DNA of 14,686 nucleotides from Actinomycetes bacterium (lineage in GTDB: Bacteria; Actinomycetota; Coriobacteriia; WRKU01; WQUG01), in the NCBI GenBank assembly GCA_031268615.1, contig JAIRWZ010000121.1, positions 1 through 14,686 of the forward strand, written 5' to 3'. The notes under the pieces were generated by a model. The model had not been told where the DNA came from. It worked only from the letters and a program-made list of their open reading frames with translations, and ran no database searches. The position numbers were made by a program, and so were the translations under genes. This document shows, piece after piece, positions 8,008 through 14,239 of this stretch (the stretch's first letter is position 1; each line of letters begins with the position of its first letter).

Positions 8008-8034
8008 TTGGACAGGCGAAATGCCTGTTATAAT
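8008..8034 (+). promoter_or_regulatory. def promoter with an embedded dyad (possible operator)
   Basis: TG-T-TATAAT at 8026-8034 is a consensus extended -10, and TTGGAC at 8008-8013 is a -35-like hexamer 15 bases upstream. Between them lies a perfect 17-bp dyad, ACAGGC-N5-GCCTGT (8012-8028), overlapping both elements, where a repressor would block polymerase. The hexamer ends 7 bases before ATG 8042, predicting a leaderless def mRNA. The promoter is likely; the operator is inferred from symmetry and position. Confidence 0.6.
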
Positions 8035-8041
8035 GGCTCTC

Positions 8042-8623
8042 ATGAGCAAGGAAAAACCCTTAAAGAAACAGCGTAAAGGCAAGGCGCTGCCCGTCATTCG
8101 CTACCCTGACCCCATCCTGTCGCAGGTTAGCGTCGAGGTTGCCGTCCAGGACGAAGACCCGCGCGCGCTGCTGTCCTTTATCCGCGACCTGGTGGCGACT
8201 ATGCGCGCTGCCGAAGGCGTGGGTCTGGCCGCCATTCAGGTTGGCATACCCAAGCGCATCCTGGTCTTTGACGACAGCGACGCCGCCGACAACCCGCGCG
8301 CGCTGATTAATCCTCGCATTGTGTGGGCGGGCGATGAAGTGGAAACGCACGATGAAGGCTGCCTGTCTTTTCCGGGCTTGTACGCCCCGGTCGTCCGGCC
8401 GACCACAGTTCGCGTCGAAGCCCTGAACGAACACGGCACGCCCATTCTGTACGAAGGCGAAGGTCTGCTGGCGCGCGTGCTGCAGCATGAGATCGACCAC
8501 CTGAACGGCCTGACTTTTGTCCAGCGAGCCGCGCCTGAGGTGCGCAAAGCGGCGCTGCGTGAATACTTCGATTTGGGAAATCCTGTGTCTGCGTCTGACC
8601 CCGCGGACAACAATTCGAAGTGA
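8042..8623 (+). CDS. def: Peptide deformylase
   Basis: Removes the formyl group from the N-terminal methionine of new proteins, using a bound ferrous or similar metal ion. The 193-residue product has all three motifs: GVGLAAIQVG (59-68), EGCLSFPG (105-112, metal ligand Cys107) and QHEIDHLNG (148-156, ligands His149 and His153, catalytic Glu150). ATGs at 8021 and 8033 are in frame upstream, but they lie within or before the -10 box, so translation should begin at 8042, where transcription is predicted to start. The N-terminus is Lys-rich. The stop overlaps the GTG start of fmt by 4 bases, so the two enzymes of the formyl-methionine cycle are translationally coupled. Confidence 0.95.
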   Translation: MSKEKPLKKQRKGKALPVIRYPDPILSQVSVEVAVQDEDPRALLSFIRDLVATMRAAEGVGLAAIQVGIPKRILVFDDSDAADNPRALINPRIVWAGDEVETHDEGCLSFPGLYAPVVRPTTVRVEALNEHGTPILYEGEGLLARVLQHEIDHLNGLTFVQRAAPEVRKAALREYFDLGNPVSASDPADNNSK

Positions 8624-9807
8624 GTACGTCCATGCGTTGTGTGTTTTTTGGTACACCCGACTTTGCCGCCCGCATACTGCGGCGTCTGGCGGCGGTTCCC
8701 CATCTGGAAATCGCCGGTGTCGTCACCCGCCTGGACGCTGTCAGCAAGCGCGGCAAGACGGCGGCGCCAAGCCCTGTTGCGTTAGCAGCCGCCGAGCTGG
8801 GTTTACCGGTTAAAAAGCTGTCATCGCTGGCTGCTTTCGATACCGATTTCTGTCTGCCCCGTGTGACGGACACTAAGCGACCTTTCGGCTCGGAAGGTTT
8901 CCCTGGCGGCCCGTACCCCCTGGAAGACAACCCGTGTGCGGATGCTGATGTTTTTATTGTGGCAGCGTTTGGCCTGCTGCTGCCACCAGCGCTATTGACC
9001 ATGCCGCGCCGGGGCTGTGTCAATGTTCACGCGTCGCTGCTCCCACGCTGGCGCGGCGCGGCTCCGATTGAACGCGCGATGTTAGCCGGAGACCCGAACA
9101 GTGGCGTCAGTATCATGCGGATGGAAGCCGGGTTGGATACCGGGCCGTATTGCGCGCGCGCGGCTGTTCCCATCGGCGACACATCAGCCGATGAGCTGCG
9201 CCGGGAACTGGCGGAGCTGGGCGCGACCTTGCTGCTGGATAGTTTGCCTGCCATTGCCGATGGCAGCGCAGAGTGGACTGCGCAGGATTTAGCACAGGTG
9301 ACCTATGCGCAAAAGATTGCGAAAGGCGAGCTGAACCTTTCTCCGGAAGTGAACGCTGAAATGAATCTGCGGCGGGTACGCGCGTCAAGCGCAAGCGCTC
9401 CGGCGAAGTGTTGTATCGCGGGCACTGAACTGCGGGTGACAGCAGCACGTGTCGGGGACGCCGGGGGGGACAGAGCCGAAGTCTCGAAAGCAAACGGGAG
9501 GGGCAGGACCGCAGCCCGGCTCGTTGCCCGGTCCCCACAACCGCCAGACGATGGCGCCGTCGCAGTGCCCGCTCTGCGATTGACCTGCACGGATGGCTCC
9601 GTGCTGGAAGTCCTGCGGTTGCAACCGGCTGGTAAACGCGAGATGGCCGCGGCTGACTGGCTGCGGGGCCTGCGCTTGCCCGCCAGCTCCGCCACGGCTC
9701 TCATCTCTGGAGCTACCACTACTGCTATTCCCGCCACCTGCGACGCCACCGCCACGTCCGACCCTGACGCCTCCGACGCCTCTGACATCTACCTGACATG
9801 GCACTGA
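8620..9807 (+). CDS. fmt: Methionyl-tRNA formyltransferase with insertions
   Basis: Transfers a formyl group from 10-formyl-tetrahydrofolate to Met-tRNA for initiation. The N-terminus (MSTSMRCVFFGTPDFAARIL) matches the usual Fmt start, supporting GTG 8620 over ATG 8632. The catalytic residues are present: Asn135 and His137 in VNVHASLLPRWRGAAPI, and Asp173 in GLDTG. At 395 residues it is about 80 longer than typical. About 27 extra residues lie between positions 72 and 108; this follows because the catalytic residues are all shifted by 27 relative to E. coli Fmt. The C-terminal tRNA-binding part carries another insertion near 279-315 and a Ser/Thr/Asp/Ala-rich tail from about 355. The FNPWP motif of the C-terminal domain is replaced by an Ala/Ser-rich stretch. 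The reading frame is intact and the active site complete, so I expect a working enzyme. Confidence 0.93.
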   Translation: MSTSMRCVFFGTPDFAARILRRLAAVPHLEIAGVVTRLDAVSKRGKTAAPSPVALAAAELGLPVKKLSSLAAFDTDFCLPRVTDTKRPFGSEGFPGGPYPLEDNPCADADVFIVAAFGLLLPPALLTMPRRGCVNVHASLLPRWRGAAPIERAMLAGDPNSGVSIMRMEAGLDTGPYCARAAVPIGDTSADELRRELAELGATLLLDSLPAIADGSAEWTAQDLAQVTYAQKIAKGELNLSPEVNAEMNLRRVRASSASAPAKCCIAGTELRVTAARVGDAGGDRAEVSKANGRGRTAARLVARSPQPPDDGAVAVPALRLTCTDGSVLEVLRLQPAGKREMAAADWLRGLRLPASSATALISGATTTAIPATCDATATSDPDASDASDIYLTWH

Positions 9808-11180
9808 GTCCCGCTCGCACCCTGGCCTGCGACGTCATCACCCGCGTTCGTCAGCGCGACGCCTACGCGCACGAGACCCTGTCGGCTGCCCTGTCCCACC
9901 ACCACCTGTCCGCCCCAGACGCCGCTTTCGCCACTCGTCTGGCCTACGGCACGATTGCTTGTCGCGGTACGCTGGACGAAATCGTCACCGCCCAGCTCTC
10001 ACGCCCCAAATCCACCGACCCCGTGGTCATCGACGCTCTGGCGCTTTCTGCCTGGGAACTGTATTTTTCCGATACGGTAAGCTACGCTATCGTTGACCAG
10101 GGGGTTGAGCTGATACATACCCTCAAAGGGCCGCGGTATCGTTCTCTGGCCAATGCTCTGCTCCGCCGTCTGGCCGGCGCGCGCGCCGCCTTCCCCTTTG
10201 CTGACCCCCGCACTGACCCTGCTGCGCATGCTCGTCAACACGGTCATCCCGTCTGGCTGGCTCGTTACCTGCGCGCGCGCTTTGGCTTTGATACCGCCGA
10301 CTGCCTCATGGCCGTCAACAACGAACCGGCCCCGTTGTATTTGGCACACCTGCCCTTTTCCACGGATTTTGATGAAGTCATGGCTCGTTTAGAAGATCAG
10401 CGAGCGCGTCCAGTCCTGGGACCCGTACCCGGCTGTATAGAAATCGGTGTGCCGTCAGCTGTCGTCGCCAGTCCGCTGCTGTCCTCGCGGGACGTGGTGG
10501 TTATCGACGCCGCCGCCCAGCAGTGTGTCGCCTTGGCGCGCGCCCAGGCAGGCCAGTCTCTTGTTGAGATTGGCAGTGGACGCGGGACAAAGACCTTATT
10601 GTTGGCAGCCAACGCGCGTCGGGGAGGTGGTCCGGCGAAGGTACGTGGCATTGACCTGCATGAATTTAAGACGAACGTTCTAAGCGCTGACGCGAAACGT
10701 CTGGGCGCCTGGGAAGTGGACGCGTTGAGCGCGGATGTGACGCAACGCGATTTTATAGATTGGGCTGCGGCGCATAATCTGACTGAAGCCGATACTGTTT
10801 TTATTGACGCGCCCTGTAGCGGATTGGGTACCTTGCGACGCCATCCGGATAAGCGTTGGCGCTTGCAACAGGCCGATATCGGTCGTGCGGCGCAGCTGGG
10901 GTCGGCGTTGCTCCAAACGGCAGCACGATTACTGCATTCTGATGGCATGTTAATCTACGCAACGTGTACAATAAGCGCAGAGGAAAACGAAGACCAGATT
11001 GCCGATTTCCTGTCTTCAGAGCTGGGAAGTCAATTTGAGTCACAGCCGGTGGTAAACAGCGAGCTGCCGCCGACTTTTGCCGACGCTCTGACGAAGAGAG
11101 GGCAGTTTCAGACGCTGCCTACGCACCATGGTCCCGACGGCCACTTTTGCGCCAGACTTAAGAAAAAGAGGGCAGGATAA
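9798..11180 (+). CDS. rsmB: 16S rRNA (cytosine-C5) methyltransferase RsmB (Sun)
   Basis: Makes 5-methylcytosine at position 967 (E. coli numbering) of 16S rRNA using S-adenosylmethionine. The 460-residue protein has a NusB-like RNA-binding N-terminal domain (about 1-130, with RLAYGTI, ELYF and LANALLRRL) and a Rossmann methyltransferase domain from about 230. Motif IV is IDAPCSGLGTLRRHPDKRWR with Cys340, and motif VI is IYATCTISAEENE with the presumed nucleophile Cys390. Motif I reads EIGSGRGTKT rather than the common APGGKT, a variant. The start overlaps fmt by 10 bases. RsmB and the RsmB-like RlmI/NSUN families share these motifs; the NusB-like domain and the def-fmt context favour RsmB. 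Confidence 0.92.
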   Translation: MALSPARTLACDVITRVRQRDAYAHETLSAALSHHHLSAPDAAFATRLAYGTIACRGTLDEIVTAQLSRPKSTDPVVIDALALSAWELYFSDTVSYAIVDQGVELIHTLKGPRYRSLANALLRRLAGARAAFPFADPRTDPAAHARQHGHPVWLARYLRARFGFDTADCLMAVNNEPAPLYLAHLPFSTDFDEVMARLEDQRARPVLGPVPGCIEIGVPSAVVASPLLSSRDVVVIDAAAQQCVALARAQAGQSLVEIGSGRGTKTLLLAANARRGGGPAKVRGIDLHEFKTNVLSADAKRLGAWEVDALSADVTQRDFIDWAAAHNLTEADTVFIDAPCSGLGTLRRHPDKRWRLQQADIGRAAQLGSALLQTAARLLHSDGMLIYATCTISAEENEDQIADFLSSELGSQFESQPVVNSELPPTFADALTKRGQFQTLPTHHGPDGHFCARLKKKRAG

Positions 11181-11196
11181 AGGAAAGGGGAATGAT

Positions 11197-12150
11197 ATGG
11201 AAGCCGCGAGAATTCAGGAAATGATGGACGTGACGATTGCTGCCGCTTTTGCCGCGGGAAAATGGGTGGGACGCGGTGATAAAAACACTGCGGATGGCGC
11301 GGCGGTTGCGGCGATGCGTGAGGCGCTGAACCAGCTGCCGATTTCGGGACGCGTTGTCATCGGTGAGGGAGAACGCGACGAGGCGCCGATGTTGTTTATT
11401 GGCGAAGAGGTGGGCAGCGGCGGAGAGGCAATTGATATCGCTGTTGACCCCATCGAAGGCACAAATATGACGGCATATAACCAACCGAATTCGATTGCGG
11501 TGCTGGCCTTTGCACCACGTGGGTCGCTGTTGTATGCGCCGGACACCTATATGCACAAGATTGCGGCCGGACCCGCGGCACGCGATGTCATCGACATTGA
11601 CGCGACGCCGGGCGACAACTGCCGGGCGGTGGCTGCGGCGCTGGATAAGCCGGTAGAAGATGTGGTGGTCTGTTTTCTGGATCGCGAGCGCAACGAAGAA
11701 AAGATTGCCGCGGTGCGCGAGGCCGGAGCGCGGGTGCGCTTGATTGGTGACGGAGACGTGTTTGGCGTGATTTCAACTGCTATCGCCGGTGCGGGGATTG
11801 ATTTGTACCTGGGCAGCGGCGCTGCGCCGGAAGGCGTGTTGGCCGCAACAGCAATGCGCTGTATTGACGGTGGATTTCAGGGGCGGTTTTTGTTCCGCAA
11901 CGACGACGAGCGGCGCCGTGCGGAGAAAACGGCGGGGCTCGATATTGACGGGGTGCTGCGCCGTGATGATTTGGTGCGTACCGATGATGCCGTATTTATT
12001 GCCACCGGCATTACCGATGGCGAACTGCTACGTGGTGTGGGCAGCGGGGACCGCGCGAATTCACTGGTGATGGATTGCAAGTCGAAAACCATTCGTTTTG
12101 TCGAGACCATTTATCGTGGCCGCTCCACCGGTGCGCTGTCGGTAGCTTAG
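11197..12150 (+). CDS. glpX: Class II fructose-1,6-bisphosphatase (GlpX)
   Basis: Hydrolyses fructose-1,6-bisphosphate to fructose-6-phosphate in gluconeogenesis; the only such enzyme in many actinobacteria. The 317-residue product contains VGRGDKNTADGAAV (about 24-37), VVIGEGERDEAPML with Glu57, DIAVDPIEGTNMTA with Asp80, Asp84 and Glu87, NSIAVLA, and LGSGAAPEGVLAATAMRC with Glu212. These cover the metal and substrate-binding acids of the family. The frame is open from 11128 inside rsmB, but ATG 11197 follows AGGAAAGGGG (11181-11190) by 6 bases and gives the normal N-terminus. Some GlpX proteins also act on sedoheptulose bisphosphate; the sequence does not decide this. Part of the def operon by spacing. 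Confidence 0.95.
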   Translation: MEAARIQEMMDVTIAAAFAAGKWVGRGDKNTADGAAVAAMREALNQLPISGRVVIGEGERDEAPMLFIGEEVGSGGEAIDIAVDPIEGTNMTAYNQPNSIAVLAFAPRGSLLYAPDTYMHKIAAGPAARDVIDIDATPGDNCRAVAAALDKPVEDVVVCFLDRERNEEKIAAVREAGARVRLIGDGDVFGVISTAIAGAGIDLYLGSGAAPEGVLAATAMRCIDGGFQGRFLFRNDDERRRAEKTAGLDIDGVLRRDDLVRTDDAVFIATGITDGELLRGVGSGDRANSLVMDCKSKTIRFVETIYRGRSTGALSVA

Positions 12151-12174: not shown

Positions 12175-13353
12175 ATGGCAGTTCCCCTTCGCAGTTCGCT
12201 GAGCAAGACGGATTTGGCAAAGCTGCCTCCGGTGTCGCGCGAACGCGCACGCAGGCAGCGGCTGGTTGAGGGCATGCTTTTGGTTCGGATTTGTGTGGGG
12301 ATAGCAATAGCGGTCGGCCTGGTTGGTGTGGCGCTGGTGGCGGTAAACATCTGGGGTATGGTTACGGTGCCGGGTGTTGAGGGGACTAATCTGGAACAGG
12401 CCGAGCGTCAGGCGCGTAGCGCCGGGCTAACGGTCGAAGTGGTAGCGGAGCGCTATTCAACCGGACCGCAGGGTCGTGTGTTGGAACAAGAGCCGGCTGC
12501 CGGTCAGCGTATACGACGCGGCACGACGCTGCGTCTGACTGTGTCAAACGGCGTGTCAGGATTTGTCGTACCCGACCTGGTGGGATTGGAGGAGGAACAG
12601 GCCCGCGCGGAGCTGGCGACCTTGGGACTGGAAGTTTCGGTGATAACGGAAAGCTCTGAAGCCACGGCGGGAGTGGTTCTCTCTACCGTACCGGCAGGAG
12701 GCACGAAGGTGACTGCCGGTGATGGACTGGTTTTACATGTGGCAGATAAACGTGACAAGGTCGGTCTGCGCAGCTGGCCTCTGTCCGGGCAGGTTGTAGT
12801 AGTAGAGCCACGCTGGATGGGGCTGTATGAGGACGGGGATGTGACCTATGAGATTGCGCGGCGTCTGGCTTCGCTGGTAAAGGCGGCAGAAGGTAAAGCT
12901 GTGGTGACCAGGCAGGTGCAGGAACGCAGGGTCAGCGATACAGTATATGCGCAACGAGCGAAGAGCGAACACCCTGATGTCTGGATACGCCTGGTGTTAG
13001 ATGGGGTGGGAAGTAGCGAAGGAAGTGAAAAGGCTCAAGGAGGTACCGGCACCGGATTGGTTGTCGGCGCGTCAAGTCGGGTGGGCCGGCCAGACGCTGG
13101 CACTGGCACGGAGGGGGATGGTGAAAGTGATACCTTGGCTGCGGAACTGACTAGCGAACTGCGACAGTTTAGCGATGAGGTCACGCAGGTGCAGATACAG
13201 CTGACAACAACAGTCGCTTCCGGCCGTAGCGTCGTGTTATCGCTGGGCAGCAGCAAAAATACTGCTGACCGGGCGCTGTTTGGCGATTCGCAGTGGTGCG
13301 ACAACGTAGCGCGTGCCCTGTATATGGCCATCGGAGCTACGCTGGCGAAATGA
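12175..13353 (+). CDS. PASTA-domain membrane protein with catalytically degenerate amidase-like domain
   Basis: A 392-residue protein: a basic cytoplasmic N-terminus (1-36), one membrane helix (about 38-58), PASTA domains at about 62-125 (VTVPGVEGTNLEQAE...GTTLRLTVSNG) and 128-190 (FVVPDLVGLEEEQARAEL...GDGLVLHVA), and an extracytoplasmic C-terminal region 205-390. That region follows the outline of N-acetylmuramoyl-L-alanine amidases (Amidase_3): VVVEPRWMGLYEDGDVTYEIARRLASLV, then VVTRQVQERRVSDTVYAQRA, WIRLVLDG, a Gly/Ser-rich loop, VVLSLGSSKNTADR and an ending of AIGATL. The expected zinc histidines (DPGHGG, SIHAN) read EPRWMG and RLVLDG, and the catalytic glutamate site (VELGFLSN) reads VLSLGSSKN, so hydrolysis is unlikely. 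PASTA domains bind muropeptides or beta-lactams. Likely a wall-sensing or scaffold protein. PASTA and membrane topology are firm; the amidase relation is moderate. Confidence 0.82.
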   Translation: MAVPLRSSLSKTDLAKLPPVSRERARRQRLVEGMLLVRICVGIAIAVGLVGVALVAVNIWGMVTVPGVEGTNLEQAERQARSAGLTVEVVAERYSTGPQGRVLEQEPAAGQRIRRGTTLRLTVSNGVSGFVVPDLVGLEEEQARAELATLGLEVSVITESSEATAGVVLSTVPAGGTKVTAGDGLVLHVADKRDKVGLRSWPLSGQVVVVEPRWMGLYEDGDVTYEIARRLASLVKAAEGKAVVTRQVQERRVSDTVYAQRAKSEHPDVWIRLVLDGVGSSEGSEKAQGGTGTGLVVGASSRVGRPDAGTGTEGDGESDTLAAELTSELRQFSDEVTQVQIQLTTTVASGRSVVLSLGSSKNTADRALFGDSQWCDNVARALYMAIGATLAK

Positions 13354-13381
13354 GTGCGGCAAGAATGCGACAATGGCCGGT

Positions 13382-14239
13382 ATGCGTATGAGGGACTCAC
13401 GTGCGATAGCGCAGGTGGTGGGGCGCCAGATTGCCCAGGCAGCGACGGTCCTGCGCCCCGATGTAGTAGTGGCGTTGGAGGCGGCCTGTGCGCGCGAGAC
13501 GAATGCCCGTGCCCGAAACGTCCTGAGCATGTTGCTGGAAAACGCCCACCTTTCCGCTGCAAAGGACCTTCCCCTCTGCCAGGACACCGGCACGGTCTGG
13601 GTGCTGCTGGAGGCCGGTGAGGACGTCACGGGATTTCCTCCTGACCTGCAACAAGCCATTGACGCCGAGGTCGCCCGTGTCTACAAGGAGCAGGGCTTGC
13701 GCGCCTCGACTGTGCGTGACGCGCTCTGCGACCGCAGCAATCCCGGTGACAACACCCCGGCTTTCATCGAGTATCGCCGTCGCCTGGGCAAAGGTCTGAC
13801 GGTTTCAACGCTGCTGAAAGGCGCGGGGTCAGATAACGCGTCGCAGGTAGTGATGTTGCCGCCAGCTGCTGGTAAGCAGGGGATTATGGACGCACTCACT
13901 TCGCTGGTTCGGGAAAAAGGGTCGGCTGCCTGTCCGCCTCTGGTTATCGGGGTCGGCGTGGGCACGACCTTTGACAAGGTGGCTTCGCTGGCCAAGCGCG
14001 CCTTGCTGCGACCGGTGGGGCAGGCGAGCGGCGTCGCGCAGGTCGCGCAATTTGAGGCAGAACTGCTGGCAGCCGTCAACGCGACCGGCGTAGGACCTGC
14101 GGGTTTGGGTGGGGCGACGAGCGCATTGGGCGTGGCGGTAGAGACGGCGCCCGCCCACATTGCGGCGCTGCCGGTGGCTTTCAATTTGGGCTGCTGTGCT
14201 ATGCGTTCCGCGAGCGAAGTGGTGCGTGCGATACAATAG
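13382..14239 (+). CDS. Class I fumarate hydratase (fumarase/tartrate dehydratase), alpha subunit
   Basis: The alpha half of the two-subunit, iron-sulfur class I hydro-lyase that interconverts fumarate and malate (or acts on tartrate). Cluster ligands are the cysteines in LPLCQDTG, AACPPLVIGVG and NLGCCAMRSA. Other family landmarks are DRSNPGDNTPAF, GAGSDNASQVVMLPP, ALLRPVG, GPAGLGGATSALGVAVETAPAHIAALPVAFNL. At 285 residues it matches the separate alpha subunit, not the fused form. No beta subunit follows in the window; the next gene is a transporter. In-frame ATGs lie at 13373, 13382 and 13388. I chose 13382 because TG-C-GACAAT (13366-13374), a weak extended -10, ends 7 bases before it, and because the family N-terminus fits. 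No ribosome-binding site was seen. Fumarase versus tartrate dehydratase is not decided. Confidence 0.9.
   Translation: MRMRDSRAIAQVVGRQIAQAATVLRPDVVVALEAACARETNARARNVLSMLLENAHLSAAKDLPLCQDTGTVWVLLEAGEDVTGFPPDLQQAIDAEVARVYKEQGLRASTVRDALCDRSNPGDNTPAFIEYRRRLGKGLTVSTLLKGAGSDNASQVVMLPPAAGKQGIMDALTSLVREKGSAACPPLVIGVGVGTTFDKVASLAKRALLRPVGQASGVAQVAQFEAELLAAVNATGVGPAGLGGATSALGVAVETAPAHIAALPVAFNLGCCAMRSASEVVRAIQ
14232..14237 (+). promoter_or_regulatory. Candidate -10 box for the transporter gene
   Basis: TACAAT ends 6 bases before ATG 14244 and overlaps the fumarase stop codon. This spacing predicts a leaderless mRNA, matching the geometry at 1770 and 8029. No strong -35 was identified. No ribosome-binding site precedes the ATG, which supports the reading. 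Confidence 0.45.

Follow-up and report, generated by a model that had tools for sequence, protein, structure and literature searches.

The question raised by this locus is what a protein with PASTA domains and an amidase-like domain devoid of its zinc site does in a genome place that in Firmicutes is presumably occupied by the PASTA kinases PknB, PrkC and Stk1. The gene lies at 12175..13353 on the forward strand, as do all features of the window given below, the window being the whole stretch of 14,686 nucleotides that was analysed. The frame list gives an open reading frame from an ATG at 12175 to 13353, stop included, encoding 392 amino acids; its Pfam matches to PASTA (E 2.9e-28) and Amidase_3, together with its relatives, identify a PASTA-PASTA-pseudo-Amidase_3 membrane protein. 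The start at 12175 is backed by the relative P0002, which has the same N-terminal tail. The database entry for the same protein, P0001, begins at residue 34 and loses this tail, which the relatives share.

Layout and active site were compared in a joint alignment of 83 rows from the family with 33 control amidases, 31 of them from the class and two from elsewhere in the phylum. The family rows are the window protein, P0002-P0005 and P0070-P0149, minus the fragments P0119 and P0138; left out were P0001, which is the same protein, P0150, with 168 aa, and P0151, which bears the name of a kinase. The single membrane helix and two PASTA domains reported in the preliminary description are both borne out. 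A basic tail (residues 1-38; 12175..12288) common to P0002 is predicted to be cytoplasmic, and is followed by the helix at residues 39-57 (12289..12345; hydropathy 2.88). The charge of +4 in the 15 residues preceding the helix and of -1 in the 15 following it implies an orientation with the N-terminus inside and the C-terminus outside, which puts the PASTA and amidase-like parts, as predicted, outside the membrane. One such helix is present in 81 of the 83 family rows (none was found in the other two), and 76 of these 81 are more basic before it than after. PASTA domain 1 (residues 63-125; 12361..12549) is the best stretch of the match to Pfam PF03793, and domain 2 (residues ∼126-191; 12550..12747) was bounded from it by eye; the match as a whole has two stretches and lies above the cut-off, at 98.1 bits and E 2.9e-28. 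The remainder, residues 198-392 (12766..13350, the start set by eye), is an Amidase_3-like domain without catalytic residues, as judged from Pfam (E 5.2e-6), hhalign (98.7%) and PDB profiles. Near 281-292 the window protein has about a dozen inserted residues, which 81 or 82 of the 83 rows lack.

The likeness of this C-terminal region to Amidase_3 had been proposed from the order of short motifs, and VVxxP (207-212), VVTR (243-246) and VxLxLGxxxN (353-362) do occur at those residues. The profile HMM comparison that had been suggested as a check returns a match of the C-terminal piece to PF01520 at E 5.2e-6 and 27.1 bits, the curated cut-off being 27; with a slightly different C-terminal cut the score is 26.9 bits, and for the entire window protein it is 24.3, below the cut-off. 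Among 32 C-terminal domains (the window and 31 relatives), 31 match Amidase_3 at E up to 1, with a best value of 1.8e-13, and the likeness is therefore not due to chance. In a search of the genomes 26 family loci were matched, 20 above the PF01520 cut-off and six below, including the window's own. Profile-profile comparison with hhalign against 14 amidases of related genomes gave a probability of 98.7%, and at E up to 1 a profile of the 32 domains found 14 different sequences in the PDB, 13 of them under 0.02. These 13 are amidases or amidase-type by name, except for one called Ply protein; the best is the germination-specific amidase 7rag (E 8e-10), followed by 5emi, 4bin and 4rn7. The last of the 14 is an enoyl reductase (0.56) and was taken as a chance match. 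Homology of the C-terminal domain to Amidase_3 is thus confirmed at the level of sequence profiles.

The catalytic residues of Amidase_3 are missing from this domain. In the 33 amidase controls the columns for His, Glu, His and Glu are kept in 33, 33, 32 and 33 rows, respectively, the count for His 1 being 33 by construction because the controls were cut by a motif around it; 11 further amidase rows chosen without that motif, five of which are the same genes fetched again, have all four residues in 11 of 11. The family counts at His 1, ligand Glu, His 2 and catalytic Glu are 0, 9, 0 and 0 of 83, so that 74 rows keep none of the four and nine keep the ligand Glu alone. In the window protein the first zinc His position is W214 (12814..12816), a column with Pro in 55 of 83 family rows; the zinc Glu position is D220 (12832..12834); the second zinc His position is V274 (12994..12996), where one control has Tyr; and the catalytic Glu position is S356 (13240..13242), where Arg is found in 44 of 83. 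The claim that metal histidines and catalytic glutamate are absent thus stands: the window protein has none of the His, Glu and His ligands or the catalytic Glu of an active zinc amidase, and the sole His in its C-terminal part is residue 266. Across the family, 60 of 83 domains contain no His whatsoever, and a His near the first site occurs in none of the 83 and near the second in one.

Against complete loss of the site, the ligand-Glu column retains Glu in nine rows and has Asp in 17, and the His 2 column has Asp in 53 of 83; these acidic residues make some ligand or metal binding possible. The domain is also conserved, and one could suppose that it is still an active hydrolase using other residues, or another metal bound by those aspartates. 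With Pro predominating at His 1, Arg at a catalytic position from which Glu has gone altogether, most domains free of His, and no alternative set of His and Glu residues fixed across the 83 rows, we consider this very improbable.

In the search of relatives the gene was matched at E up to 1e-20 in 33 of 59 genomes, including the window's own, and in a wider sample of the class 65 of 296 genomes match at E 9.5e-27 or better, the best value elsewhere in that sample being 2.8e-12. Twelve weaker matches were read: eleven are second matches in genomes also having a strong one, and eleven have all four catalytic residues. The one lacking the second His, L100 (650-2005; G088), is otherwise an active-type PASTA-amidase with Tyr at that position, possibly another amidase losing its activity. 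Families f4, f6, f7 and f22 have no strong match among the class-sample matches listed. Across 396 genomes of the phylum, in which minor classes are thinly sampled, seven matches were found at E up to 1e-15, namely the window's own, four of the same class, and those of G304 and G358, both of which keep all four catalytic residues; no further family member was thus found outside the class at that threshold. With midpoint rooting the dead family forms one clade of 35 rows (support 100/99) opposite all 33 controls, and its profile matches the PASTA-amidase group (98.3%) and the longer amidases (98.4%) almost equally well; neither result singles out the active PASTA-amidases as the source of the family. 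In G074, two adjoining pieces (L099, 3314-5333) match the pseudo-amidase family, either as a tandem copy or as a broken duplicate.

Conservation within the family has its own pattern. R230, L234, A237, R246, D371, D376 and Y383 are fixed in all 83 rows, and nearly fixed acidic residues are D222, D365, D371 and D376. A C-terminal segment at residues 369-387 (13279..13335), whose conservation is not shared by the controls, contains the invariant D371, D376 and Y383 along with W374 (79/83) and R380 (81/83), and in the first helix R229 (81/83) accompanies the invariant R230 and L234, a pattern that the controls likewise do not show. The assignment of first and last helix is assumed from the Amidase_3 family. 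Nei-Gojobori dN/dS for nine pairs is 0.07-0.28 over the gene and 0.04-0.27 over its C-terminal 185 residues, near the values for fmt and rsmB; dS is near or above 1 (>0.9) in eight of these pairs, and the least saturated (dS 0.28) gives 0.20 and 0.18. By these ratios the family is under purifying selection, and none of the 65 strong matches contains an internal stop. Loss of catalytic residues would by itself fit a decaying remnant without function, but the intact frames, dN/dS well below 1, the seven invariant residues and a single genome place across many families make this extremely improbable. As far as sequences can tell, this is a real, conserved family of pseudo-enzymes.

The genome place is itself conserved. 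In the window the gene follows a def-fmt-rsmB block (8021..11180; names from reading frames, with homologues in the fetched loci) and glpX (11194..12150; Pfam FBPase_glpX, E 2.7e-122), from which it is separated by 24 bases, in agreement with the location first given for it. Loci were fetched for every relative with a hit except G012, 31 of 32 in all, and the proposed survey of position shows the place to be kept: glpX is the next matched gene upstream on the same strand in 29 of 31. In the two exceptions, without a glpX match between, the gene comes after fmt (L044) or after rsmB (L070). glpX also precedes the gene in six of six further members (G088, G060, G064, G074, G126 and G010), with one additional opposite-strand ORF between the two in G074; the member in G010 is short and strongly diverged (L105, 6486-7214; ∼242 aa) and lies between glpX and asp23. 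A small opposite-strand zinc-ribbon gene (Pfam Zn_ribbon_8 in one example) intervenes in 13 loci. The fullest form of the block reads metK-priA-def-fmt-rsmB-glpX-(zinc ribbon)-pseudo-amidase-M23-thiT-thiN-HD/GAF-asp23-dak-degV-recG, where metK, priA, dak, degV and recG are named from sequence and the part from M23 to asp23 by Pfam on examples. Downstream in the window there is instead a fumarate hydratase-type ORF (13313..14239; Pfam Fumerase, E 4.9e-84), which has no match in the loci of the 31 relatives. For ten genomes lacking a strong match, rsmB was used to fetch the locus; def and rsmB were present in all ten, with no match to the gene in any at E up to 1e-4.

The preliminary description regarded this as a place where PASTA kinases usually sit. 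That view is plausible, as the priA-def-fmt-rsmB and thiN-asp23-dak-recG flanks of the relatives resemble the presumed prpC-prkC neighbourhood of Bacillus subtilis. Replacement of a kinase by this gene is ruled out by a full PASTA kinase of 699 amino acids that the genome encodes on contig C71, adjoining an ORF with FtsW and transpeptidase domains. This ORF (L075, 7386-10163), directly upstream of the kinase, is 925 amino acids long with FtsW/RodA and penicillin-binding transpeptidase domains, and is apparently a fused wall polymerase and crosslinker. The window protein contains no kinase domain by Pfam, and against the PASTA kinase profile NF033483 it scores 92.2 bits where the cut-off is 450, aligning residues 25-198 with profile positions 326-503 only. 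A scan of contigs found five loci matching the PASTA part only; in the window's genome, L074 (4861-6294) and L076 (6139-7383) are kinase-less with four PASTA stretches each, one of them beside an L,D-transpeptidase gene, and an additional PASTA match lies on C37. No other Amidase_3 match was found in this genome, which is 62% complete. With a PASTA kinase elsewhere and no other Amidase_3, the dead amidase is neither a kinase replacement nor, as far as a genome of that completeness shows, in need of an active Amidase_3 partner.

A PASTA kinase in the same cells does raise the possibility that the protein is its substrate or co-receptor. Kinase matches at E up to 1e-80 are present in 56 of 59 genomes, 54 of them above the curated cut-off, and the predicted tail would lie on the opposite side of the membrane from the PASTA domains. 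There is also a precedent in the mycobacterial CwlM (Rv3915), described in PMC4946905 as an amidase homologue with degenerate zinc histidines that keeps two of four zinc residues, that has an essential regulatory role and from which the remaining zinc residues can be removed. According to the same source it is phosphorylated, likely by the PASTA kinase PknB, and the phosphorylated form stimulates MurA. CwlM, however, is described there as cytoplasmic and without a secretion signal (PMC4946905), whereas the amidase-like part here is predicted to be outside, the window protein having one membrane helix and positive-inside charge. Moreover, no invariant Ser or Thr was seen in the tail among the alignment columns listed, and the kinase is present too in genomes that do not have this gene. 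A membrane-based counterpart of CwlM acting through the kinase is therefore unlikely.

The gene order of the relatives points in a different direction. Directly after the pseudo-amidase gene, 39 of 65 genomes encode an M23 endopeptidase that has a PcsB-type coiled coil; Pfam gives M23 3e-23 and CC_PcsB 1.6e-7 for one such protein, and three of three scanned reach or exceed both cut-offs. Among 18 loci the gap is 6-59 bases in nine and there is a 4-base overlap in two; in the remaining seven the longest frames overlap and the start is ambiguous. For MepM, an active enzyme, PMC8360153 gives five active-site residues (His, Asp, His, His, His), and their counterparts are invariant across 10 of 10 aligned M23 rows and were seen by eye in all 18. 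The preliminary description proposed a muropeptide-binding sensor or scaffold of wall synthesis; a wall endopeptidase so frequently next door points to a role in hydrolysis at least as much as to one in synthesis.

The pairing is not obligatory, and an M23 enzyme as a required partner is ruled out. The 65 genomes divide into 39 with the M23 gene adjacent, 10 with it elsewhere, for some of which a contig break is possible, and 16 with none at threshold, the partial M23 rows of G102 and G128 (the latter at a contig edge) being omitted from this count. In G120 the pseudo-amidase and the M23 gene are on different contigs, the former near a contig end, where a break is possible. Conversely, G048 (L149) has an M23 gene that remains at the locus without any pseudo-amidase match, and both this genome and the 16 without M23 argue against dependence. 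The sampled members of the window's own order are among those 16. Two of them have remote or incomplete matches: in G012 these are two partial pieces, each at the start of a contig, and in G009 a coiled-coil M23 protein that is only distantly similar. The window's genome has three coiled-coil matches, namely one NlpC/P60 protein, one protein of lytic-transglycosylase type and one truncated coiled-coil piece.

We favour the reading in which a PASTA stalk displays a peptidoglycan amidase domain, catalytically dead, on the outer side of the membrane, and in which the protein probably acts as an adaptor bound to the wall, placing or gating a hydrolase or the divisome. That a dead version has been kept at the same genome spot suggests that it regulates wall remodelling instead of cutting, and the broader description of a wall-bound pseudo-amidase adaptor or regulator is likely. 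In such a mechanism peptidoglycan would be held, uncut, by the PASTA repeats together with the former substrate groove. R229, R230 and L234 in the first helix and D371, W374, D376, R380 and Y383 in the last would form a new protein-docking face, through which the adaptor might place or gate a wall hydrolase or the divisome. The likeliest partner would be the coiled-coil M23 endopeptidase next door, which is found in most of the carrying families of the class.

A more specific version of the adaptor is modelled on EnvC, NlpD and ActS, in which a dead wall-hydrolase domain (M23) acts as an amidase regulator (as described in PMC8360153 and PMC8594824). Here the roles would be inverted, with the PASTA pseudo-amidase recruiting and switching on the adjacent live coiled-coil M23 enzyme in most of the families that carry it, and binding of nascent wall by the PASTA domains would make the switch wall-sensing. 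We put this forward tentatively, as a possible but not a probable mechanism; it is drawn from the M23 neighbour in relatives, and the window's own genome lends no support to it. Were it true, the arrangement would mirror that of Gram-negative bacteria, where a live amidase is switched on by a dead M23 domain.

The protein could alternatively be a decoy or brake for the active-type PASTA-amidases of the same genomes, competing with them for substrate or activator. Such enzymes do exist, since PASTA precedes Amidase_3 in nine of ten scanned amidases of related genomes and the four residues are kept by all but L100. The dead protein is nevertheless retained in G009 (98% complete) and G012 (90%), in neither of which a search at E up to 0.001 turned up another Amidase_3, and its family does not stand beside the PASTA-amidases in the tree; a decoy function is accordingly doubtful.

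Comparison with known systems places the preferred adaptor among, and apart from, several of them. The enzymes 7rag, 5emi, 4bin (AmiC), 7tj4 (LytH) and 1jwq (CwlV), which we take to be zinc enzymes, give profile matches over much of the domain, and their catalytic residues are absent here. With the PASTA kinases PknB, PrkC and Stk1 the window protein shares the membrane helix and PASTA repeats, and it differs in having no kinase domain. Active-type PASTA-Amidase_3 proteins of the same class (such as L086 and L087) likewise have PASTA followed by Amidase_3, although they have one PASTA stretch where there are two here, keep His, Glu, His and Glu except in L100, and form a separate tree group. 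The distinction bears on public names, for three members, P0070, P0144 and P0150, are recorded as N-acetylmuramoyl-L-alanine amidase; for P0070 and P0144, the two of these that were aligned, the name is unsupported by the residues.

We found no paper in the open-licence literature on an architecture of PASTA with a dead Amidase_3. Pseudo-hydrolase regulators as such are already known in EnvC, NlpD and CwlM, and the present family would be a variant of these. With EnvC, NlpD and ActS it has in common the retention of a dead wall-hydrolase domain; in those systems, however, it is the M23 (LytM) domain that is dead and the amidase that works, whereas in this family the dead domain is the amidase and the M23 protein encoded next door in relatives keeps its five residues, and the window protein itself has no M23 match in Pfam at E up to 10. 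Like CwlM it is an amidase homologue with lost zinc residues, but its domain is predicted to lie outside the membrane, is fused to PASTA and a membrane helix, and has all four of four positions changed in the window protein. If it does regulate wall cutting, the gene order predicts a hydrolase as partner, and the family would be the second dead amidase turned regulator after CwlM, this one extracellular and fused to PASTA.
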